The notes beneath the pieces are model-generated. The model made no database searches. It was not told the DNA's origin and saw only the letters and a program-made list of their open reading frames with translations. 64,000 bases of DNA from Planctomycetaceae bacterium. Lineage in GTDB: Bacteria; Planctomycetota; Planctomycetia; Planctomycetales; Planctomycetaceae. Each line of letters opens with the position of its first letter. Positions within the stretch are counted from its first letter, which is position 1. This document shows, in pieces, positions 3,385 through 19,629 of this stretch. The position numbers and the translations under genes were made by a program. The stretch covers positions 1 to 64,000 of the forward strand of contig JAHBXV010000022.1 of NCBI GenBank assembly GCA_019636285.1. The letters run 5' to 3'.

Positions 3385-3834
3385 ATGAGCACGCGGCGCA
3401 TGATCGGGATCGCGAACCGGCTGTACTACAACACGGGCACGGTCGACGTCCCAATCTGGGTAGCGATCCCGATCGCCAAAGACATCAAGGTGACCGGGGA
3501 CAAGGAGAAGGTCGAGATCACCAACCGTGGGCATGGCGAAGTGAATCGCTACGGCGGTGGGGGTCGCGACATCGGCTTCACGTTTGACGTGTCCAATAAA
3601 CCCGCTGACGCCACGTTCCTGGCCCTGCAGGCCAGCTATACCGGCAATACGTCGATCGAACTCGCCGCCACGGATGGAGACATCACCGTGGCTGGAACCC
3701 ATGGCGTTCGCGCCGTGTGCGAGGTCTTCAAGTTCGAGAAAACGGCCGGGCTCAAGGGCGAGGCGAAGTGGGACGTCGAGGCGGCTCCGACCGACTCGAC
3801 CGCTGTGCCCAGCTACTTCACGGTTGCGGATTGA
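3385..3834 (+). CDS. Phage tail tube protein
   Basis: The 149-residue protein is rich in beta strand and Gly. It has the look of long-tailed-phage tail tube subunits: an N-terminal strand region with an extended loop (VEITNRGHGEVNRYGGGGRDIGF), then a compact core ending in a conserved-looking strand (VPSYFTVAD). A strong ribosome site (GGAAAGG) precedes the ATG. The order tube, chaperone with frameshift, tape measure is the canonical siphovirus tail module, and this order is the main support. No sheath gene adjoins it, so the tail is probably non-contractile. Confidence 0.65.
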   Translation: MSTRRMIGIANRLYYNTGTVDVPIWVAIPIAKDIKVTGDKEKVEITNRGHGEVNRYGGGGRDIGFTFDVSNKPADATFLALQASYTGNTSIELAATDGDITVAGTHGVRAVCEVFKFEKTAGLKGEAKWDVEAAPTDSTAVPSYFTVAD

Positions 3835-3879: not shown

Positions 3880-4353
3880 ATGCGCACGTTCAAGGACAAT
3901 GCCGAGACCGCGTGGACCCTGACCGTCGATCCGTTCGACGTGAAGCGGATCCAGGCGGCACTCGGCTACAACCTGCTCGATCTGCGGCTCAGTGACGAGG
4001 CGCTAACAGCCTGGATGGCCGATCCGATGCGGATGGTCGACACGCTCTGGCTGCTGGTTTCGGAACAAGCCCAACAGCAGAACGTGACGGAAGCCGAGTT
4101 CGGTCGCCGGCTGCGTGGCCGACTCTTCGAGGCCGGATTGGCGCTGCTGGAGGAGTTGACCGATTTTTTCCCCCTCCAGAGCCAGCGGGACGAGCTGAAG
4201 GCCCGCCTGGCTCTGCAACTGAAGGGGATGGAAGTCGAGCACTCGACGGCGGCCTGGATGGCGGATCGGTTCCGGACCGCCCTCGCGGCGTCGACTTCCT
4301 CCGCCACTGCTTCGAGCTCGCCGGAATCTGCGGAGTCAGTGCCCGCGGGCTGA
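3880..4353 (+). CDS. Tail assembly chaperone, G-like
   Basis: The 157-residue acidic helical protein lies between tail tube and tape measure genes, where lambda-type phages encode the gpG chaperone that coats the tape measure protein before tube polymerisation. It opens with a short beta part (MRTFKDNAETAWTLTVDPFD), then helices including a LLEELTDFF segment, and ends in a low-complexity Ser/Ala/Pro tail. Codons 96-97 (TTT TTC after GAT) form a canonical slippery heptamer, and the -1 frame stays open to 4565. The product is therefore probably made both as this protein and as a longer fusion. Family assignment is by position and composition. Confidence 0.6.
   Translation: MRTFKDNAETAWTLTVDPFDVKRIQAALGYNLLDLRLSDEALTAWMADPMRMVDTLWLLVSEQAQQQNVTEAEFGRRLRGRLFEAGLALLEELTDFFPLQSQRDELKARLALQLKGMEVEHSTAAWMADRFRTALAASTSSATASSSPESAESVPAG
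4164..4215 (+). promoter_or_regulatory. Candidate -1 programmed ribosomal frameshift signal
   Basis: Bases 4164-4170 read T-TTT-TTC in the reading frame of the G-like gene, a canonical X-XXY-YYZ slippery heptamer. After a 6-nt spacer (4171-4176) comes a stem-loop. CAGAGCC (4177-4183) pairs with GGCTCTG (4209-4215), and GCGGG (4185-4189) pairs with CCCGC (4202-4206). The stem has 12 pairs, a small internal loop and a 12-nt apical loop. The -1 frame has no stop from here to 4563. All three parts of a textbook frameshift site are present. The caveat is that the 0-frame peptide here (DFFP then helix) also looks genuinely coding. Confidence 0.6.
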
Positions 4354-4565
4354 CGCTTCGGGAACTGGCCTGGATGGCGGAAGCGCGCCAGCGCTCCGAA
4401 TGGAATCGGACGGCCGATCTGATGGCTCTCACCGCGAACTGTCTGCTGACGGAAGGGGGTTTCACCCGCGAGCACTTTCATCCCTTCGCCCAGTTGGATG
4501 AGTGCCAAGGCCTGAGCGGGTTCGCGGAGTTGTTGCCAGCGTCGACGTTGAAGGCCTCGAAATGA
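4164..4565 (+). CDS. T-like extension of tail chaperone, reached by -1 frameshift
   Basis: The frame one base behind the G-like gene is open from the slippery site to 4565. It encodes a Gly/Pro-rich linker and then a clear folded stretch, VDFLRHCFELAGICGVSARG, followed by LTLRELAWMAEARQRSEWNRT and FTREHFHPFAQ. This resembles the T half of GT chaperones, with its Leu-Arg-Glu-Leu/Trp-Met-Ala core and HPF ending. No ATG, GTG or TTG precedes that core; the first ATG (4374) would cut into it. Frameshifting would give a fusion of about 228 residues. The stop overlaps the tape measure start (ATGA). An indel in the sequence is the alternative explanation. Confidence 0.6.
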   Translation, partial: FFPPPEPAGRAEGPPGSATEGDGSRALDGGLDGGSVPDRPRGVDFLRHCFELAGICGVSARGLTLRELAWMAEARQRSEWNRTADLMALTANCLLTEGGFTREHFHPFAQLDECQGLSGFAELLPASTLKASK

Positions 4566-6520
4566 GCGTGCAGGGAGTTCGCGCGGGACGCGCGTATGTG
4601 GAGATCGGCGGCGATGACTCGTCGCTCGATCGCGTGCTGCGCGAGGACGTCGGCAAACTTCGAAACTTCGCGAGCTCGGTGGCTCGTGTGAGCGGGGCTG
4701 TCCTGGCGGTTGGAGCTGCCGGAGCGACGTCCCTAGTCCCAGCCATTTCGAAGGCCAGCGAATACGAACAGACGATGGCCAAGTTCGACACGATTTTCGG
4801 AGACCTGGCTGACAGCAATCGGGCGTGGGGCGACGAGACTGCGAAGCAGCTCGGCCGGAGCCGTCAGCAGATCGCATCCTTCCTGGCCGACACCCAGACC
4901 CTGCTGTTGCCGATCGGGTTCGAGCCGGGGGCGGCCGAGCAGATGAGCCGCACGCTGACCACCTTGGCCAGCGATATGGGTAGCTTCCACAACAAAGCCG
5001 ATTCCGACGTGATGCGGGATCTCCACGCCGCCCTGACGGGATCTGGCGAGGTCATGAAAAAGTACGGCGTCATCGTCACCGAAGCGGCCGTTAAACAGGA
5101 GCTGCTGAACGCGGGGATGCGGCCGGATCGCGCGACCGAGATGGAGAAGGTCTGGGCGCGCTACAACATCATCATGCGGGGAACGGTCTCGGCCCAGGGC
5201 GACACCCTGCGGTCGATGAACACGTTCGACAACCAGATGAAGTCGTTCACCGCCTCGGTGGACGATCTGCAGGTCGCGTTCGGGACGCATCTGCTTCCGA
5301 TCCTGACGCCACTCGTGACCAAAGCGAGCACTGCGATTCAGGCGACCGCCGAGTGGACCGCGAAGAACGGAGACCTGGCGGAATCGGTGATCGCCCTGGT
5401 GGCGGGTCTGATCAGTACGGGGGGTGCCGGGCTGGCCGTTGCTGGGATCGTCCGGCTGATGGCTGGCGTTTGGAATAGTTACCGGCTCGTCCTGCAGGCC
5501 ACGACACGCGCCAATGTCATCCTGCAGGCGCTTTCCGGTCCGAAGGGCTGGGCGATGATTGCCGCCGGCCTGGGCGTGGCTGCGGTGGCCATCGCCGGCG
5601 TGAACGCCGCCTTGAAGACTGTCGAGCCGGATCTGGCCAAAGCCGAGGAAGGGCTGAAGGGTTTCGCCGAGGCTCAGACGCAAGCCGCGAACGCACCCCC
5701 GGTGCGGCTGAATGTCCCCGCTGGTCCCAACATCGCCGCGCTGCTCGAAAAGTCTCTCACACCCGCGATGAAGCTGCGGAAGGAGCTGGAGGAACTCGCG
5801 AAGGCGCGCCAATGGATGGGTGACTTTGGTCACACCAACGAAGCGGCCGCGATGTTTCAGCGGCTGTCCGATTCGGCGTACGACTCGGCCACCGGCATTC
5901 AATCGGCCATGCAGAAAGCCCGGGAGGAGATCGCCCTCCTGAAGGGGACGATCACCGAAGGCGAACTCGAACTGCACAAGATGGCCGCCAATGGGGCGAG
6001 TCAGCAGATGCTCGATCAGTATCGCCAGTTGATGCAGGAGCGTGACCGGCTCAAGTCGGAGCAGGAGGCGAAAGACCGGGCTCGACAGGAAGCCGAGCAG
6101 CGTCGGCAATCCGTCATCCAGACGGCGCGCAATGAGGCTCAGTCGATCGTCTCCAACACGCGCACCGATGAGGAACGGCGTGATGCCGAGCTGGCGCGGC
6201 TGAAACAGTTGCGGAACACGGTCGACCCGAGCACCGGTCGCGCGTTCCTGGATGAAGACACGTATCAGCGGGCCGTTCAGAAGGTCCTCGAAGGCGCGAA
6301 ACCCGACGCCGTCGCGGTCGATGACCGTCTGCAGCGGGCCACGGCCAGCGATGTTCGCAGCGAGGACGGCGCCCGTGCCCTGCTCGCCGCGTTCGGCGGC
6401 GGGTCGTCTCAGGACAAGCTGCTGAAGTCGTCCCAACTGGCGGCGGCGGAAGCGACCAAGCAGACCGAGCTGCTCGCGAAGATCGAGCGGAAGCCCCAGC
6501 CCGAAACGGAGTCGCTCTGA
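4562..6520 (+). CDS. Phage tail tape measure protein (TP901 type)
   Basis: The 652-residue protein starts at ATG 4562, overlapping the stop of the T-like frame. Residues 20-300 fit the phage tail minor/tape measure domain: an N-terminal helix, a Gly/Ala-rich hydrophobic stretch, and the conserved-looking run from YEQTMAKFDTIFGDL through GSGEVMKKYGVIV to GTHLLPILTPLV. Two hydrophobic segments follow (about 285-345), then long coiled-coil helices to the C-terminus. At roughly 0.15 nm per residue, a rule of thumb for the family, it would set a tail near 100 nm. The stop overlaps the next start (TGATG). Confidence 0.85.
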   Translation: MSVQGVRAGRAYVEIGGDDSSLDRVLREDVGKLRNFASSVARVSGAVLAVGAAGATSLVPAISKASEYEQTMAKFDTIFGDLADSNRAWGDETAKQLGRSRQQIASFLADTQTLLLPIGFEPGAAEQMSRTLTTLASDMGSFHNKADSDVMRDLHAALTGSGEVMKKYGVIVTEAAVKQELLNAGMRPDRATEMEKVWARYNIIMRGTVSAQGDTLRSMNTFDNQMKSFTASVDDLQVAFGTHLLPILTPLVTKASTAIQATAEWTAKNGDLAESVIALVAGLISTGGAGLAVAGIVRLMAGVWNSYRLVLQATTRANVILQALSGPKGWAMIAAGLGVAAVAIAGVNAALKTVEPDLAKAEEGLKGFAEAQTQAANAPPVRLNVPAGPNIAALLEKSLTPAMKLRKELEELAKARQWMGDFGHTNEAAAMFQRLSDSAYDSATGIQSAMQKAREEIALLKGTITEGELELHKMAANGASQQMLDQYRQLMQERDRLKSEQEAKDRARQEAEQRRQSVIQTARNEAQSIVSNTRTDEERRDAELARLKQLRNTVDPSTGRAFLDEDTYQRAVQKVLEGAKPDAVAVDDRLQRATASDVRSEDGARALLAAFGGGSSQDKLLKSSQLAAAEATKQTELLAKIERKPQPETESL

Positions 6521-10868: not shown

Positions 10869-12211
10869 TGATCCTGAACACCCGGTGGGCCGAACGCTGG
10901 GCCACCACACTTCGATTCGATTCCGAGGGGGAGTTCTCCTGGGCAAGGAACTTCGCGCGAGCCGACGGCATCGACCTGTGGGGCTGGGCCCCGCGCCTCG
11001 ACATCGATGCAGACGACCGGATCGTGCTGGCCGGCAATTCGCAGTCCCGCAGCGCTGACGATCCCGCACCGACCCCGAGGCGTCACAACTTCGAAGTGCG
11101 CGGCGCGAACGGAACTCGGCGAACCCGATACTTCCTCACGCTGGACGGGCTCAGTGACCCGACCGATCTGCCAGACGACCTCGACGAGTACGGTGGATGG
11201 GCACCGGTCGGGTTTCTGCCGACTCCGCAGGAACCGTTGTGGCCGATTCGCTGGGCGCCGGATCGAGGGCTCCTGTTCACAAGGCGACTCGGTGCTGGGT
11301 ATGTCTCGATCGGAGGCAGCGTCCAGTTCTATCGCACGCCCTGTATCATGCGGCTGCGCAGCAATTTCACGCTGGATCCGGTTCCGGTCTACTTCGACAG
11401 CGGATACCCGGTCGACTATGTGAAGCTGCCGTCCGGTGACCTGATCGTTCTCTGGAACAATCCGACCTCTCAAGGCTTCAACGGGATCGGTGGCACGGCC
11501 GTCCGTTCCATGATGCGCCGCGTGACCAGTGACGAGGTGCTCTGGTCGGAATCGGGAGGGGGAACCGATACGTGGTTTCAGTTCCTCGCCGCCGGCGACG
11601 GCTTCATGGCCGCGACCGGGCACAACTGGGGCATCTCGGACGATGACGTTGTGCCCGTCCTCCTGGTGGATCCTGAAACGGGTGATTCGCTGTGGACGTC
11701 GAATCACTTTTCGTTCCCCAACCTGGATGACGCAGACGCCGGTCTCGGTATGGCCACCGGGCTGGCAGCGCGCGGCAGCAAGGTCGCGGTCGCGTGGGAC
11801 CGTACCGGGTTCACGACATTGGAGATCTTCGGCCTGGCACGCGGCGGGAACGGGCGAGTCGCGCTGATCGACGTCGAATCGGGAGCAGTCGAGTGGGCCT
11901 GGGCGACGACGAGACCAGTCGGGCGGGTCGCGATCGACAGCCAGAATCGCGTTTGGGCGAGCGTCGGGCGTGACCTGATTCGATTCACCAGCGCCGGCGA
12001 AATCGACCAGGTTTGCAACGTGCAACGGGCCACCAGGCCGCTGGTGCGAGTCACGAGTCCGTGGATCTATGAGCGACCGCCCTACACGGTCCTACCCGAA
12101 GCTGTCGACCCGGAGCCGTCGGATTATGTCACCGATCTGGCTGTCGACTCGGCAGACGGGGTGATCGCTGCCCTGTGGACGCAATTTTGGAAGGCTCCCG
12201 AATGGCTTTGA
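10868..12211 (+). CDS. Beta-propeller-like phage structural protein
   Basis: The 447-residue protein starts at ATG 10868 (TAATG overlap). It contains several short strand-turn-strand repeats typical of propeller blades: RLDIDADDRIVLAGN, LLVDPETGDSLWTSN, ALIDVESGAVEWAWATT, VAIDSQNRVWASVG and LAVDSADGVIAALW. Most have an Asp-x-x/Asp-Gly turn, as in PQQ/NHL-type blades. There is no signal peptide, which argues against an exported host enzyme and for a virion component such as a receptor-binding protein. Its stop lies nine bases inside the next gene's start. The fold is inferred from the repeats; the role is inferred from location. Confidence 0.55.
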   Translation: MILNTRWAERWATTLRFDSEGEFSWARNFARADGIDLWGWAPRLDIDADDRIVLAGNSQSRSADDPAPTPRRHNFEVRGANGTRRTRYFLTLDGLSDPTDLPDDLDEYGGWAPVGFLPTPQEPLWPIRWAPDRGLLFTRRLGAGYVSIGGSVQFYRTPCIMRLRSNFTLDPVPVYFDSGYPVDYVKLPSGDLIVLWNNPTSQGFNGIGGTAVRSMMRRVTSDEVLWSESGGGTDTWFQFLAAGDGFMAATGHNWGISDDDVVPVLLVDPETGDSLWTSNHFSFPNLDDADAGLGMATGLAARGSKVAVAWDRTGFTTLEIFGLARGGNGRVALIDVESGAVEWAWATTRPVGRVAIDSQNRVWASVGRDLIRFTSAGEIDQVCNVQRATRPLVRVTSPWIYERPPYTVLPEAVDPEPSDYVTDLAVDSADGVIAALWTQFWKAPEWL

Positions 12212-14031
12212 CGATTGGGGCTGTTGTCCCCTGCCACAACTATGGTCGCTTCCTCGCGGAGTGCCTCGATTCGCTTCTGGCACAGTCGTTCGCGCTTTCG
12301 CAGATCGTCGTCGTGCTCGACGGCTGCACGGACGACTCGTCCGAGATCGCCGCCCGATACCGGAACGCCGGCGTCGAGATCCTGACGGTCAACGTGCGGC
12401 ATCCGTACCTGGCCCGCCGCGCCGGCCTGCAGGCGATCGAGACCGACCTGGTGTTCTTCCTGGATGCCGACGATCGGGTCAGCGAGGACTTCGCGGGCGC
12501 TGCCGCCGCGATCTTTGAGAGACGTCCCGAGGTCGGCATCGTCACGCCGGTCCTGCGCACGTTCGGCGAGACCTCGGGAAGCTGGCGGCCGGATCCGGAC
12601 GGCGACATCGAAGCCGAAAATCGGGCGACGTCGGCGTCAGTGGTCCGGCGCATCGCGCTGGAGCGCACGCAGGCCTTTGAGCAACTGGAGTTCGTGAGGC
12701 TCGCCAACGAGGATTACTTCGTCTGGCGCCACCTGGTGCGGCACGGCTGGAAGATCGCTCGCAGCGAGGCACTCCACGAGTACCGCCGCCACCGCGCGAA
12801 TTACTCGCTCAACTATTCCGCCGAGACCCATCCCTGGGCGGAAGAGATCCGCCGTTCCATGCCGGGATACCGTCCGGCCAAACAACTGACGGTCGGCTGG
12901 GTCACCCCGAACCTGTGCGGCGGTGGCGTGGTGGTCAACACGATGATGAAGATGCGGTGGGCCAAAACGGTCCACTGGGCGGGAGCAATGCTGACCGATG
13001 GCGGTGCGTCCGACCAGCCGGCCTACTTGGCAATTCGATCCCGTTGCCCCGTCGTCGCCGGCACGCCACATCCCACCACGAATGCCGACATCCCCGATCG
13101 ACGCTCAGGCGTCGCAGCGGCCGTCCAGCTCGCCGAACGGTGCGACGTCGTCTACAGCTGGGGCCATCGTTCCGCCGAGATCCTGGAAGCGATCTCGGCG
13201 GTTTGTCCGGTCGTGTTCGGCCTGCATGGGCAAGGCCCCTGGACCGAGCAGACGGCCGTGATCGCCGCGCCGTACGCCTCGGGGTTCTACTGCGTGTCTC
13301 AGGCCGCGGCCCGATGCGTTCCGGTCAACCGGCGGCGGATGGCCGTCGTAATCGATAATGGGGTCGACCTCGACCGGATCGCCCCGGTGTTCGGCCGCGA
13401 GGACATTCGGCGGCGATGGGGTTTGTCGCCCGACGACATCGCGGTCGGATTCGTGGGCCGGATCAGCCCGGAGAAACGCCCCGAGGCAATGGTCGATGCC
13501 GTCCGTCTGCTGCCCCCGTCGTTTCGGCCGGTCTACATCACCCCGCAGGCGAATCCCGAGGCCTGCATGGGTTCCCGGTCGACGCGCGATCTGATCGCCG
13601 CGAAGGTGGCCGCGCGAGGCGGTGTGTTTGAAGTCGGCGATCTGCTGGGCGACGTCTACGCCGGCCTCGACGTGCTGGTGGTCACGAGCACCGAGGAAGG
13701 GGGGCCGCTCGTGATGCTCGAGGCGTTCGCCGCCGGCGTCCCGGTCGTCTCGACACCCGTGGGGCTGCTCCCGTCTCTGGAGCGGCAGCACGGGCCGCTG
13801 GCGATCGGCGTTCCGCACCAGGCGTCGCGCGAGACTCTGGCCGAGGCGATTCTCGAGGCAACCGATCGGACGCGCGAGAACCAGCGGATCCGGGCGGCGC
13901 GGGAACTCGCCTGGCGGCAGCTTTCGGCCACGCGAATGGTGGCGGAGTTCGAGGATCTCCTCTGGGACGTTGCCGGCGTCCCGAGATTTCGTCCGAAATA
14001 TTCCGGCGGAAAGGGAGTCGCAACGTGTTGA
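12202..14031 (+). CDS. Two-domain glycosyltransferase (GT2 fused to GT4/GT1-like), phage-encoded
   Basis: The 609-residue protein combines two glycosyltransferase folds. Residues 1-220 are a GT-A family 2 domain: AVVPCHNYGRFLAECLDSLLAQ, VVLDGCTDD and the DxD-type metal/nucleotide motif FFLDADDR near 88-91. From about 230 comes a GT-B domain: LHGQGPWTEQ, GFVGRISPEKRPEAM near 418 and the donor-binding EEGGPLVMLEAFAAGVPVVS near 496. ATG 12202, preceded by GGAAGG, is preferred over GTG 12175. It lies between tail genes and DNA methyltransferases, so sugar modification of virion proteins, phage DNA or the host surface is likely. The substrate is unknown. Confidence 0.75.
   Translation: MALTIGAVVPCHNYGRFLAECLDSLLAQSFALSQIVVVLDGCTDDSSEIAARYRNAGVEILTVNVRHPYLARRAGLQAIETDLVFFLDADDRVSEDFAGAAAAIFERRPEVGIVTPVLRTFGETSGSWRPDPDGDIEAENRATSASVVRRIALERTQAFEQLEFVRLANEDYFVWRHLVRHGWKIARSEALHEYRRHRANYSLNYSAETHPWAEEIRRSMPGYRPAKQLTVGWVTPNLCGGGVVVNTMMKMRWAKTVHWAGAMLTDGGASDQPAYLAIRSRCPVVAGTPHPTTNADIPDRRSGVAAAVQLAERCDVVYSWGHRSAEILEAISAVCPVVFGLHGQGPWTEQTAVIAAPYASGFYCVSQAAARCVPVNRRRMAVVIDNGVDLDRIAPVFGREDIRRRWGLSPDDIAVGFVGRISPEKRPEAMVDAVRLLPPSFRPVYITPQANPEACMGSRSTRDLIAAKVAARGGVFEVGDLLGDVYAGLDVLVVTSTEEGGPLVMLEAFAAGVPVVSTPVGLLPSLERQHGPLAIGVPHQASRETLAEAILEATDRTRENQRIRAARELAWRQLSATRMVAEFEDLLWDVAGVPRFRPKYSGGKGVATC
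13986..13999. promoter_or_regulatory. Palindrome ATTTCG-TC-CGAAAT, copy 3
   Basis: A perfect 14-bp palindrome at the 3' end of the glycosyltransferase gene, 26 bases before the start of the adenine methyltransferase gene. A short TTCC/GGAA inverted repeat follows immediately. It is identical to copy 4 at 14888. The spacing to the downstream start is similar to copy 1. Confidence 0.5.
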
Positions 14032-14888
14032 ACCAGATCGTCCCCTGGTACGGCGGGAAAGCCGCCCTGGCCCGGCTGATCGTCCACGAATTCGGTCCGC
14101 ACCGGGCCTACTTCGAGCCGTTCGCGGGCGGGTTCGGGATCATCTTCCGCAAGCCCGTGACGCCGCACGAGACGCTGAACGATCTACACGAGGACGTGAC
14201 CAACCTGGCGCGCGTCGTCGCCGACTCGATCGACAGCGCGGCGCTGGTGCGGCGTCTCGGTCGACGGCTCAACTGCGAGGCGCTTCACAACGAGGCCCGG
14301 GCACGCCTCCGCGAACCCTTCGCGCCGGGCCCCGAACGCGCGGCCGATTTCTTCTTCGTCAGCTGGCTGGCCATGAACGGCTTCACCGGGTCGACGTCGA
14401 CTCAGACCTACACGGCGAAGTACCAGCAGGTGAACAGTTCCAAGTGCCAGAAGCTGCGGAGCGCGATCGATTCCATTCGGCATTGGCATGAACGTCTCCG
14501 ATCTGTCGCCATTCTGAACCGGGATGGGTTCGAGCTGCTGGCCCGGCTGCCGGACGAACACGGCGCGGTGATCTATTGCGACCCGCCCTACGTCAAGAAA
14601 GGGGGCACCTATCGGTTCGACTTCGCTGCCGGCGACCACGACCGCCTGGCGAAAGCTCTCGGTCGGTTCCGCAAGTCGCGGGTGATCGTCAGCTATTACG
14701 ACGATCCGCTGCTCGATCGGCTCTATGCCGGGTGGCACAAGCGGATCATGGTCGAGTGGAAGCATCGCCCGCAGAACGGCGTCAGCAAGCCCAAGCCGCC
14801 CGAGATCCTGCTCATGAACGGGCCATCGCTGGTCACGCCGAAGGCGACCCGGATCCGCGGTCGCGTGGACCAAGTTCTCGCCGTCTGA
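14025..14888 (+). CDS. DNA adenine methyltransferase, D12 (Dam-like) class
   Basis: The 287-residue protein has the alpha-class N6-adenine methyltransferase order. It begins WYGGKAALARLI, typical of the family, then the SAM-binding FEPFAGG (residues 30-36) and later the catalytic YCDPPY (DPPY 186-189). Length matches the D12 family (about 260-300). The start is GTG 14025 or TTG 14028 and overlaps the glycosyltransferase stop. No restriction gene adjoins, so this is an orphan enzyme that probably protects phage DNA or controls phage genes. Recognition of GATC is typical of the class but not shown by the sequence. Confidence 0.85.
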   Translation: MLNQIVPWYGGKAALARLIVHEFGPHRAYFEPFAGGFGIIFRKPVTPHETLNDLHEDVTNLARVVADSIDSAALVRRLGRRLNCEALHNEARARLREPFAPGPERAADFFFVSWLAMNGFTGSTSTQTYTAKYQQVNSSKCQKLRSAIDSIRHWHERLRSVAILNRDGFELLARLPDEHGAVIYCDPPYVKKGGTYRFDFAAGDHDRLAKALGRFRKSRVIVSYYDDPLLDRLYAGWHKRIMVEWKHRPQNGVSKPKPPEILLMNGPSLVTPKATRIRGRVDQVLAV

Positions 14889-14901
14889 TTTCGTCCGAAA
14901 T
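14888..14901. promoter_or_regulatory. Palindrome ATTTCG-TC-CGAAAT, copy 4
   Basis: A 14-bp palindrome identical to copy 3, starting at the last base of the methyltransferase stop codon. It is the first in a run of inverted repeats that fills the gap before the next methyltransferase gene. Confidence 0.5.
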
Positions 14902-14903
14902 GT

Positions 14904-15044
14904 GGCCGGTCGGCTGTTAGAGCAGCCGACCGGCCCGCACATCGAGCCTGACCGACAGGCCGACATGCGTTTCCGCAAAGGAAACCCGCATGCGTCCTGT
15001 CGTTGATCTAGATCAGCCTCGCAGCGGCCGCCGCCGGCGGCCGC
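14904..15044. other. Stack of inverted repeats between two methyltransferase genes
   Basis: Five further inverted repeats follow copy 4 of the palindrome. First, 14904-14935 is a perfect 13-bp stem (GGCCGGTCGGCTG) with loop TTAGAG. Next, 14946-14960 has arms GCCTG/CAGGC. Then 14964-14992 has CATGCG-TTTCC arms, loop GCAAA and a two-base bulge. The palindrome TGATCTAGATCA lies at 15004-15015. Finally, 15024-15044 has a 9-bp GC stem (GCGGCCGCC). None is followed by a T-run, so simple termination is unlikely for all of them. The arrangement could be a structured RNA, a complex regulator-binding region or a replication or recombination site. No open reading frame is credible here. Confidence 0.55.
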
Positions 15045-15139
15045 CGTGTTCGATCCGAATTCGCGGTCCGCCAGTTCTCGAACAGTCTTTTCCCTCGCGT
15101 CTCAACTGACCCGAAAGACCCACGTTCGAGGAACCAAGG

Positions 15140-15931
15140 ATGGAACCGTTTTTTGCCACACAGGATGTCGAACTTTTCCAGGGCGATTCGCTCGATCTGC
15201 TCCCCCGGCTGCCAGCCGCGAGCTATGACGCGATCATCGCGGATCCGCCGTACTGTTCCGGCGGCACGACCGCAGGGGAACGCCGCCGCGCGCCGGAGGA
15301 GAAGTACTCCCAAGGCGGTCTGCTCTACGGCCGCCCCAGCTTCGGGGGCGACCTCAAAGACCAGCGCTCATTCACCTGGTGGGTGATGGCCTGGCTGACG
15401 ATCTGCCGCGAGCTGCTTCGAGAAGGCGGGTACTGCCTCGTCTTCACCGACTGGCGGCAATTGCCCGCGGTGACCGATGCGTTTCAGGCGGCCGATCTCA
15501 CGTGGCGGGGCATCATCGCCTGGGACAAGGGGGCCGGTGCTCGGGCTCCGCACCGGGGCTACGTGCGCCACCAGTGCGAATACCTGGTCTGGGGAACGCG
15601 CGGTGCCTGTCACTCGGCGACGCACGCCGGACCGCATCCCGGCTGCCATCAGATTCCGGTCAACCGTCGCGACAAGCACCACCTGACCGGCAAGCCGACG
15701 GCGTTGTTGCGCCAGCTCGTCCAGATCGTCCCGCCTGGCGGCCGCATCCTGGATCCGTTCGCGGGCTCAGGGACAACCCTCGTCGCCGCCCAGGCCGAGG
15801 GCCGGAAGGCCACGGGGATCGAGCGGGAGGCAGCATACTGTGCCATCACCCGCGACCGTCTGCGGGGCCCCACTGTGGCTCAGGGTGCGGCCAGAAAAGC
15901 TCCTGCCGTACCGCCTGACCTGGCGGTCTGA
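15140..15931 (+). CDS. DNA N4-cytosine/N6-adenine methyltransferase, beta class
   Basis: The 263-residue protein has catalytic DPPY at residues 35-38 and the SAM-binding DPFAGSGTT at 205-213, the permuted beta-class order of the N6_N4 family. The middle contains a variable region (residues 40-80 and 130-185) rich in Arg, His and Cys, likely for DNA recognition. Length is typical. There is no cognate restriction gene, so like the upstream Dam-type gene it is an orphan phage enzyme. A hairpin-rich 250-bp leader precedes it. The target base and sequence cannot be read from the protein. Confidence 0.85.
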   Translation: MEPFFATQDVELFQGDSLDLLPRLPAASYDAIIADPPYCSGGTTAGERRRAPEEKYSQGGLLYGRPSFGGDLKDQRSFTWWVMAWLTICRELLREGGYCLVFTDWRQLPAVTDAFQAADLTWRGIIAWDKGAGARAPHRGYVRHQCEYLVWGTRGACHSATHAGPHPGCHQIPVNRRDKHHLTGKPTALLRQLVQIVPPGGRILDPFAGSGTTLVAAQAEGRKATGIEREAAYCAITRDRLRGPTVAQGAARKAPAVPPDLAV

Positions 15932-18138: not shown

Positions 18139-19629
18139 ATGAACATTCATCCCTCACTACCTGACTTTACGGCCATGGCCGACGGTCAGGATCTTGTTCC
18201 CGTCTACCGCCAACTGGTGAGCGATACGCTGACGCCGGTCCTGGCGTACGAGCGGCTTCCCGATTCGGCGACGTCGTTTTTGTTTGAAAGCGTCATCGGC
18301 GGGGAGCGCGTCGGCCGCTACAGCTTCGTCGGCTCGTGCCCACTGGTGCAGTTCAAGGCGTACGGAAACAATCTCCGAATCGAGCGCGACGGCAAGGTCG
18401 AGGAACGAACGGTTGCCGACCCGCTTCACGAGTTGGCCGAACTGGTAAAGGGTTTTCGGGCCTATCACTCGCCGGATCTGCCGCGATTTTGTGGGGGAGC
18501 CGTCGGCTACGCCGGTTACGACACCATCCGCTATTCCGAGAATCTCCCGAATGCCCCCACCGATGATCGGAATCTGCCCGATCTTTCGTTCGGCATCTAT
18601 GACCAGATGGCCGTCTTCGACAACATTCGCAAGACGATGATCGTCGTGGTCCATGCGGACGTCCGAACGGACGCCCCCGAGGTCGCGTACCAGAAGGCGT
18701 GCGATCGACTCAACAAGCTGTGCGACGCCCTCACCCGGCCGACGACCACGCTGCGGCCGCTCGACATCGATCTGAACGTCCCGACCACGCGCTCCTACAA
18801 ATCAAATTTCCAGCAGCACGAATTCGAATCCGCCGTCGAAAAGTGTCGCCAGTACATCCGCGCGGGCGACATCTTCCAGGTCGTCATCAGCCAGCGTTTG
18901 CAGCTCGATACCTCGGCGACCGCGCTTCAGATCTATCGGGCACTGCGAGTCGTCAATCCGAGCCCGTTCATGTTTCTGTTGCGGACTCCGGAAGTCGAAC
19001 TGATTGGAAGCTCGCCCGAAATCATGGTCCGCGTGGTGGGCGACGAAGTCACCATTCGTCCGTTGGCCGGAACCCGCAAGCGCGGAGCCACGCCAGCCGA
19101 TGACATCGCGCTCGAAAAGGAACTGCTCGCCGACGAAAAGGAACGAGCCGAACATGTGATGCTGGTCGACCTGGCCCGCAACGACGTCGGCCGTGTGGCG
19201 CGTTACGGCACGATTCAGCTCAGCGACGTCATGCGGGTCGAACGATACAGCCACGTCATGCACATCACCTCGAACGTCACCGGCCGAATGCTGCCGGGTC
19301 TAACGGCCCTCGATGCCTTGCGCGCAGGATTGCCGGCCGGAACCGTCTCCGGCGCGCCAAAAGTTCGTGCGATGGAGATCATTGACGAAATCGAGCCGCA
19401 TCGCCGCGGCCCGTACGCCGGCGCGGTGGGCTACCTCGATTTCTCGGGCGAAATGGATACCTGCATCGCCTTGCGCACACTGGTCCTTCAGGGCTCGAAA
19501 GCCTACGTCCAGGCGGGAGCGGGAATCGTCGCCGACAGCGTGCCAGCGAGCGAGTACGAGGAAACTCTCAACAAGGCTCGTGGCATGCTCCGGGCCATCG
19601 AAATCGCCGAAACGCAGTTGGACGGTTGA
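18139..19629 (+). CDS. trpE: Anthranilate synthase component I
   Basis: The 496-residue protein converts chorismate and ammonia/glutamine-derived nitrogen to anthranilate, the first step of tryptophan synthesis. The N-terminal domain contains [18 protein letters not shown] and GRYSFVG (60-65), part of the family's regulatory site. The C-terminal chorismate-binding domain has PLAGTRKRG (about 307-315), [10 protein letters not shown] and [19 protein letters not shown] (about 400). Length is typical. The amidotransferase partner trpG is not next to it, and trpC lies 30 kb away on the other strand, so the pathway is scattered. No leader peptide or attenuator is evident upstream. Confidence 0.93.

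Follow-up and report, generated by a model that had tools for sequence, protein, structure and literature searches.

A putative mid-gene −1 frameshift in the tail-chaperone gene of planctomycete phages

How is a tail protein translated when its reading frame offers no usable start codon? The question is raised by a stretch of 64,000 nucleotides of a Planctomycetaceae bacterium (assembly GCA_019636285.1, contig JAHBXV010000022.1, positions 1 to 64,000 of the forward strand; hereafter the window), in which a T-like segment lies in the −1 frame relative to a G-like tail assembly chaperone gene. The original prediction was that ribosomes reach this segment by −1 slippage, as siphoviruses do when they make the G and GT chaperones, and that a phage of a planctomycete uses the same device. 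We consider this reading, i.e. that a tailed phage or prophage of a planctomycete has a G/GT tail-chaperone gene with a predicted −1 slip at positions 4164-4170, to be very probable (about 0.93) on the strength of sequence comparisons: the frame relation, the heptamer, the gene order from chaperone to tape measure and the conservation of the arrangement all agree with the G/GT device.

The proposed slippery site, T TTT TTC, is indeed in frame, being read as GAT TTT TTC within the 157-codon ORF (Table 1). The −1 frame, which had been described as open to 4563, is free of stops from 3996 up to the TGA at 4563-4565, and this stop overlaps the ATG of the next gene (4562). In the window's −1 frame no ATG, GTG or TTG precedes the T-like motif; the first such codon, ATG 4374, is situated inside the motif LTLRELAWM, in agreement with the claim that the T-like segment lacks a usable start. 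The ORF that follows, at 4562-6520, has matches among the PHROG tape measure families (2.2e-12 being the best tail-annotated E value), and the chaperone pair is located directly 5' of it, as expected of G/GT genes. The ORF preceding the chaperone gene has neither PHROG nor Pfam matches at E≤1, and is therefore named by its position only.

Table 1. Features of the putative G/GT locus (positions in the window)
Feature	Position	Strand	Basis
Probable major tail tube protein (lambda V position), 149-aa ORF	3385..3834	+	position only, inferred
G-like tail assembly chaperone, 157 codons, 0 frame	3880..4353	+	ORF, homologs, fold
Shine-Dalgarno-like GGAGG, putative stimulator, 10 nt before the heptamer	4149..4153	+	spacing kept in loci
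Slippery heptamer T TTT TTC, codons 95-97 (GAT TTT TTC)	4164..4170	+	frame, conservation
−1 frame, 40-codon putative GT linker overlapping the G 0 frame	4170..4289	+	−1 reading, pLDDT 61-68
Downstream stem-loop; core 4177-4189/4202-4215, outer 4171-4175/4223-4227	4171..4227	+	folding
Predicted C-terminal helix of G (residues 100-142), 0 frame; in G, not in GT	4177..4305	+	model
T-like domain, −1 frame, stop TGA 4563-4565	4290..4565	+	−1 reading, Pfam in relatives
Tape measure protein, ATG overlaps the T stop (ATGA)	4562..6520	+	PHROG tape measure families

Several other genes are found in the vicinity. A papain-family cysteine protease ORF is located at the start of the contig (36-686), beside the phage tail genes, and an ORF encoding both a trypsin-like peptidase domain and a collagen-like Gly-Pro-Pro repeat lies just 5' of them (1121-2488). 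On the 3' side of the tail genes, a two-domain glycosyltransferase gene and two DNA methylase genes (D12 class; N6/N4 type) occupy positions 12199-15931, and the anthranilate synthase gene further on (18139-19629) probably belongs to the host.

Relatives of the locus were collected in two ways. Homologs of G were found in 19 of 99 genomes and in 36 of 392 Planctomycetota genomes (the window's own counted in both), and are present in the same family, class and phylum as the window. Together with further genome copies and five viral contigs they gave 90 loci, reduced to 60 non-redundant ones by dropping 30 at ≥85% identity over the G domain (among them L059, from the same place as L031; L001, from the same place as L002, was dropped separately). 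T was found in 55 of these 60 loci: 54 have it in the −1 frame, and in L020 it is joined to G in a single frame. Of the remaining five, L024 and L090 are truncated by contig ends, while L018, L019 and L022 have no T that we could find, the tape measure gene following G directly. A search with T through named genome contigs, independent of the G search, found 129 relatives, of which 80 were kept; 72 of the 80 contigs bear Planctomycetota names, six those of other phyla and two none (counted by eye). The attribution to planctomycete phages is thus supported by both searches. In 79 of the 80 loci G lies upstream and T in the −1 frame. The exception, L111, has a T domain at about nt 4057 with no G found upstream, an ATG in frame before T and upstream DNA that looks unrelated; either T stands alone here or the contig has been misjoined.

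After 46 of these 79 loci had been dropped as redundant, 33 were added to the 54 G-found ones (the six of the 60 without T in the −1 frame, and L111, being left out), which resulted in a set of 87 loci. As all of them were chosen for T in the −1 frame (and the T-found ones for T itself), the counts given below test the site and the frame and not the frequency of T; moreover, loci related to one another cannot be counted as independent events, and the P values are not corrected for phylogeny. Alignment A1 comprises 54 rows and A2 53, L043 having been left out of the latter (its −1 reading is 380 codons long). Among viral contigs, the T search gave at least 403 T matches in 600 candidate stretches; of the best 80, which were kept, four were already in our sets and 76 were new, and T is in the −1 frame in 76 of the 76. 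A search of 50,697 phage records with the G proteins of two members as queries returned no match.

At the aligned site the 87 loci carry TTTTTTC (62), TTTTTCC (9), TTTCTGC (8), TTTTACC (3), TTTTTTT (2) and, in one locus each, TTTCTTC, GTACTGC (L038) and GTTTTTC (L144). The T TTY core is therefore kept in 85 of the 87, and in the two exceptions (G TAC TGC and G TTT TTC) T is still in the −1 frame; the base after the heptamer is C in 87/87. When the loci are grouped at 50% identity, T TTY occurs in 20 of 21 clusters and T TTT TTC in 16. Codon choice points the same way: among 44 relatives with two Phe codons at the site, 41 use T TTT TTC, although about 7% would be expected from the codon use of each locus. 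The viral T-found set is similar, with T TTT TTC in 68 of the 76 loci, T TTT TCC in five and T TTT ACC in two; with the simpler search applied there, a T TTY site was not found in one. Four homologs whose DNA is intact and which have no T in the −1 frame also lack the site (L020 and L022 with G TTC TTC, L018 and L019 with other codons). In L020 itself, G and T form one continuous frame, with AAFF (G TTC TTC codons) at the expected slip site.

In 21 of the 87 loci the core is kept but the heptamer is not T TTT TTY, the core being followed by other second codons (T TTT TCC 9, T TTC TGC 8, T TTT ACC 3) or having the form T TTC TTC (1), and tandem re-pairing is poor at these sites. Since T TTY is nearly constant among the slip sites, it is the re-pairing of one Phe tRNA that would be conserved.

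A second element lies upstream. GGAGG occurs exactly 10 nt 5' of the heptamer in 42 of the 87 loci, compared with 21.8 expected from synonymous permutation that keeps the Leu-Glu-Glu motif, and in the upstream region examined it is never found at any other spacing. The energies of this Shine-Dalgarno-like (SD-like) element give p 5e-11. A scan of viral contigs for the combined SD and heptamer pattern GAGGARNTNRYNGATTTTTTCC gave at least 120 loci, of which 115 have an in-phase G with T in the −1 frame, four are cut by contig ends and one is unrelated; as GAGGARNTNRYNGATTTTTTCC also encodes a protein motif, this result is tied to homology and is not independent.

These two elements bear on an explanation in which the polymerase, and not the ribosome, slips. 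The window has a homopolymer run of six T followed by five C, and transcriptional slippage on the T run could yield a mixed mRNA population, from which GT would arise by ordinary translation. Runs of six, however, are short for slippage by bacterial RNA polymerase. T is also kept in the −1 frame where the T run is shorter (T TTT TCC, T TTT ACC, T TTC TGC), and an SD-like element at fixed spacing suits ribosomes and not RNA polymerase, for which reasons we regard transcriptional slippage as very improbable.

The position of the slip was the feature that had seemed odd, as it would lie about 60 codons before the 0-frame stop and leave a long dual-coded stretch, and a true site at some point 3' of the heptamer had been raised as a possibility. 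On that view the ribosome would slip close to the G stop, as it does in lambda, and the run of T would be coincidental. There is precedent for this: the heptamers of lambda, P2 and TP901-1 are situated 5-8 codons before the G stop, and the account of PRFect gives a mean slip-to-stop distance of 26 nt in SEA-PHAGES genes (PMC10885494). The distribution of stops in the −1 frame argues strongly against it. Between the site and T there are no −1 stops in 4305 codons of the 87 loci, as opposed to 187 in 7830 codons upstream (90 codons per locus), and in seven loci a −1 stop falls in the codon immediately 5' of the heptamer, after which the frame stays open as far as T. When the codons of each G are permuted synonymously, 75.5 stops are expected in the doubly coded stretch, as opposed to zero observed; in the viral T-found set, too, there are none in 3531 codons. 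A later slip would not keep the −1 frame open, but it is stop-free from heptamer to T in 87/87. The −1 stops cease precisely at the heptamer, which places the entry of the ribosome into the −1 frame there or in the immediate vicinity. Furthermore, the T domain begins before the G stop in 86 of the 87 loci, about 45 codons past the site. A downstream slip is therefore refuted, and we give it very little credence. The long doubly coded stretch is conserved, and far from being odd, the predicted position of the slip is the rule among the relatives: the distance from heptamer to G stop has a median of 64 codons and ranges from 40 to 89 in the 87 loci and from 39 to 109 in the viral set.

Another possibility is that T is translated alone, from a non-canonical start or by coupling, so that no GT fusion is made. 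Eight of the 87 loci do have an ATG, GTG or TTG in the −1 frame between the site and T (ATG in one), and L111 has T with an upstream ATG and no G. The other 79 loci have no such start. Independent translation of T would also leave unexplained why the heptamer is conserved and why the stop-free linker reaches exactly to it; in L020, moreover, a single ORF covers both G and T. A T made without fusion is thus very doubtful. That an assembly indel or gene decay has split one fused ORF, as the natural in-frame fusion of L020 might suggest, can be practically dismissed, as 87 non-redundant loci have the same split at the same site. They come from many assemblies, among which are several single-contig genomes, and the same arrangement is seen in viral contigs.

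Ribosomal slippage at the heptamer being the preferred reading, the downstream structure can be considered. The original prediction described a 6-nt spacer and a 12-pair stem-loop at 4177-4215. The spacer (4171-4176) and the stem are present, although the stem has 13 pairs and a bulge: 4177-4185 pairs with 4207-4215 and 4186-4189 with 4202-4205, and the structure can be extended by 4171-4175 with 4223-4227. The segment 4171-4230 has a minimum free energy of −32.2 kcal/mol (z −3.7), and 0 of 200 shuffles were as good. Mean local structure peaks directly after the heptamer (54 loci), and the first 54 nt past it are more stable than in synonymous permutations (mean z −1.05, Wilcoxon 9e-9, 87 loci). 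The stem is individually significant in only 30 of the 87 loci by synonymous permutation; it is less certain than the heptamer, because its rank among permutations is 0.05 in the window and 0.33 in the closest relative, L003.

Across homologs, the heptamer is conserved, while covariation in the stem amounts to one compensatory pair in two sequences: the window and L003 share the stem, and a G-C to C-G change is the sole covariation support. Synonymous identity between these two is 13/17 in the stem codons, 31/56 in singly coded ones and 3/7 in the next 20 codons, all of which are small numbers. In groups C, D and E, consensus folding yielded at most a few pairs, none of them convincing; the loci therefore do not share a single conserved stem. 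On the other hand, a CCCGAGG/CCTCGGG stem is found in 8 of 9 distinct sequences with the poorer site T TTC TGC as opposed to 4 of 21 with the better site T TTT TCC (Fisher 6e-4, relatedness uncorrected, within one related subgroup). Judging from these sequences, weaker slip sites may be compensated by a stronger hairpin.

With regard to the proteins, 37 of 53 relatives have −1 products that match Pfam Phage_tail_T (PF06223) at E≤0.1 (the lowest E value being 2.2e-6); for the product of the window itself there is no match, and the four members shown score 18.2-25.4, compared with the curated cut-off of 25.9. No match was obtained when the −1 products were compared with lambda T by hhalign. In the case of G, at most 3 of the 54 members match any one Pfam or PHROG family, and hhalign gave no match with G of lambda, HK97 or TP901-1. 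A search of a viral fold library with G listed 50 matches, ten of which are named tail assembly chaperone; all ten are weak (best E 0.035), as is the top match (E 0.0035), named tail tube protein. With G the PDB fold search yielded nothing (best E 0.91), with the −1 product the viral fold library yielded nothing useful (best 0.064, unnamed), and a sequence search of solved structures nothing relevant.

The AlphaFold model of G has a pLDDT of 90.9 and ends in a helix (residues 100-142) that is wholly within the doubly coded stretch, whereas the −1 reading of the same stretch is predicted to be disordered (pLDDT 61-68). Read in the 0 frame, this DNA would thus specify a helix that belongs to G, and read in the −1 frame a disordered linker that belongs to GT; in GT, linker plus T would take the place of the tail of G. 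Because the slip occurs in mid-gene, unlike that of lambda, GT would be devoid of the C-terminal helix of G and would not be G with an extension. According to these models, about 40-60 codons would serve both frames, providing a long helix to G only and a flexible linker to GT only. Taken jointly, the claims that GT arises by domain swap and not by extension, that the conserved requirement is T TTY with a single Phe tRNA, and that weak sites are perhaps compensated by hairpins are offered tentatively, at somewhat less than even odds.

The hydrophobicity of the linker was also considered as a sign of selection. Hydrophobic residues make up 5% of it in the −1 frame, as opposed to 25% in the 0 frame (87 loci). 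This interpretation was rejected, as synonymous permutation alone gives 6.7%, compared with 5.3% observed and 15.6% in the unused −1 reading upstream; the low hydrophobicity is mostly a passive effect of the 0 frame. There is a small extra depletion beyond permutation (p 1.6e-6).

From the features established in the sequence, i.e. the heptamer, its frame and conserved position, the open −1 frame, the absence of a start for T, the SD-like element and the excess of local structure, we infer slippage itself, its rate, the roles of the SD-like element and the stem, and the functions of the proteins. Most ribosomes would read 3880-4353 and produce G (157 aa). A minority would be paused by the stem ahead, while GGAGG behind would pair with 16S rRNA, probably adding to the pause. 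The paused ribosomes would slip back one base on T TTT TTC and continue in the −1 frame to 4562, giving a GT protein of 228 aa in all, composed of the first 97 residues of G, a disordered linker of about 40 residues and the T domain. By analogy with lambda, G may coat the tape measure protein and GT may recruit the tail tube subunit.

Lambda (NC_001416) shows the same order of a tail protein, G, T in the −1 frame and tape measure, with T overlapping the tape measure gene and the slip within G. Its heptamer, GGGAAAG, lies 5 codons before the G stop, so that GT consists of nearly all of G plus T, whereas about 60 G codons would be replaced in the window, whose G has no detectable sequence similarity to that of lambda. 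P2 (E/E+E', AF063097) has an annotated −1 slip at a heptamer of Phe codons (T TTT TTG), like the window, but 6 codons before the stop. In TP901-1 the heptamer, assigned here from the sequence, ends 8 codons before the G stop. HK97 lacks an X XXY YYZ heptamer close to the G stop, and its −1 frame is free of stops for no more than the last 17 or so G codons; it was therefore not counted among the cases with 5-8 codons.

A slip near the 3' end of G, the usual trait of G/GT systems, is absent here (64 codons as opposed to 5-8 in lambda, P2 and TP901-1). A mid-gene slip has one predicted precedent that we found. For SPP1 17.5/17.5*, a putative −1 slip at UUUUUUC in gene 17.5 is described, with 112 of 173 residues shared (PMC6316719). 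By this description, the likeness extends to a chaperone pair before the tape measure gene, the UUUUUUC site, a mid-gene slip and long dual coding, and the slip would lie about 61 codons before the stop, next to the median of 64 in the planctomycete-phage family; the host of SPP1, unlike that of the present phage, is Bacillus. Given this precedent, a slip at the 3' end is a common trait of the device and not a defining one. The signal had been called textbook, which holds for its being a −1 shift of the G/GT type; on the other hand, the slip occurs far earlier than in lambda, P2 or TP901-1, and the SD-like element had gone unmentioned.

Such an element, together with a heptamer and, in the window, a downstream stem-loop, makes the signal resemble that of Escherichia coli dnaX. 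In dnaX, a host gene, the heptamer is A AAA AAG, as opposed to T TTT TTC here, and the −1 shift leads to early termination. A review that sets out what G and GT do in lambda (PMC5009743) also lists dnaX and IS elements as cases with SD stimulators.

The device is therefore known. As far as our searches go, the group of phages and the protein family are new, and so are an SD-like element kept at a constant distance, the range of natural slip sites and the swap of helix for linker; no tail-chaperone frameshift in planctomycete phages was seen, by title or start of abstract, among the matches listed in the open-licence literature. The G/GT recoding device is hereby extended to a large family of planctomycete phages. 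Gene finders that rely on start codons would tend to miss T, and predictors that weigh the proximity of a stop, as PRFect is described to do (PMC10885494), may disfavour mid-gene slips. The series of slip sites, SD-like elements and stems over 87 diverged loci constitutes a ready set for probing the requirements of −1 slippage, and the helix confined to G raises the question of how G and GT share the work on the tape measure.

Some genomes contain more than one copy of the module. In the window's own genome there are two further G homologs: L021 (G000:C34), with T TTT TTT and T in the −1 frame, and L024 (G000:C90), in which the contig end precedes the site. The single-contig genome G430, from the same phylum, contains nine G/T modules (L028, L055-L058, L060-L062 and L065) whose G domains are at least 85% identical. 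Eight lie within about 1 Mb of one another, pointing to several related prophages on one chromosome. In L019, two consecutive G-sized stretches (stop to stop, nt 836-1484 and 1383-1881) precede the tape measure gene, with no T; judged by eye, this is possibly a duplicated chaperone in place of the frameshift.
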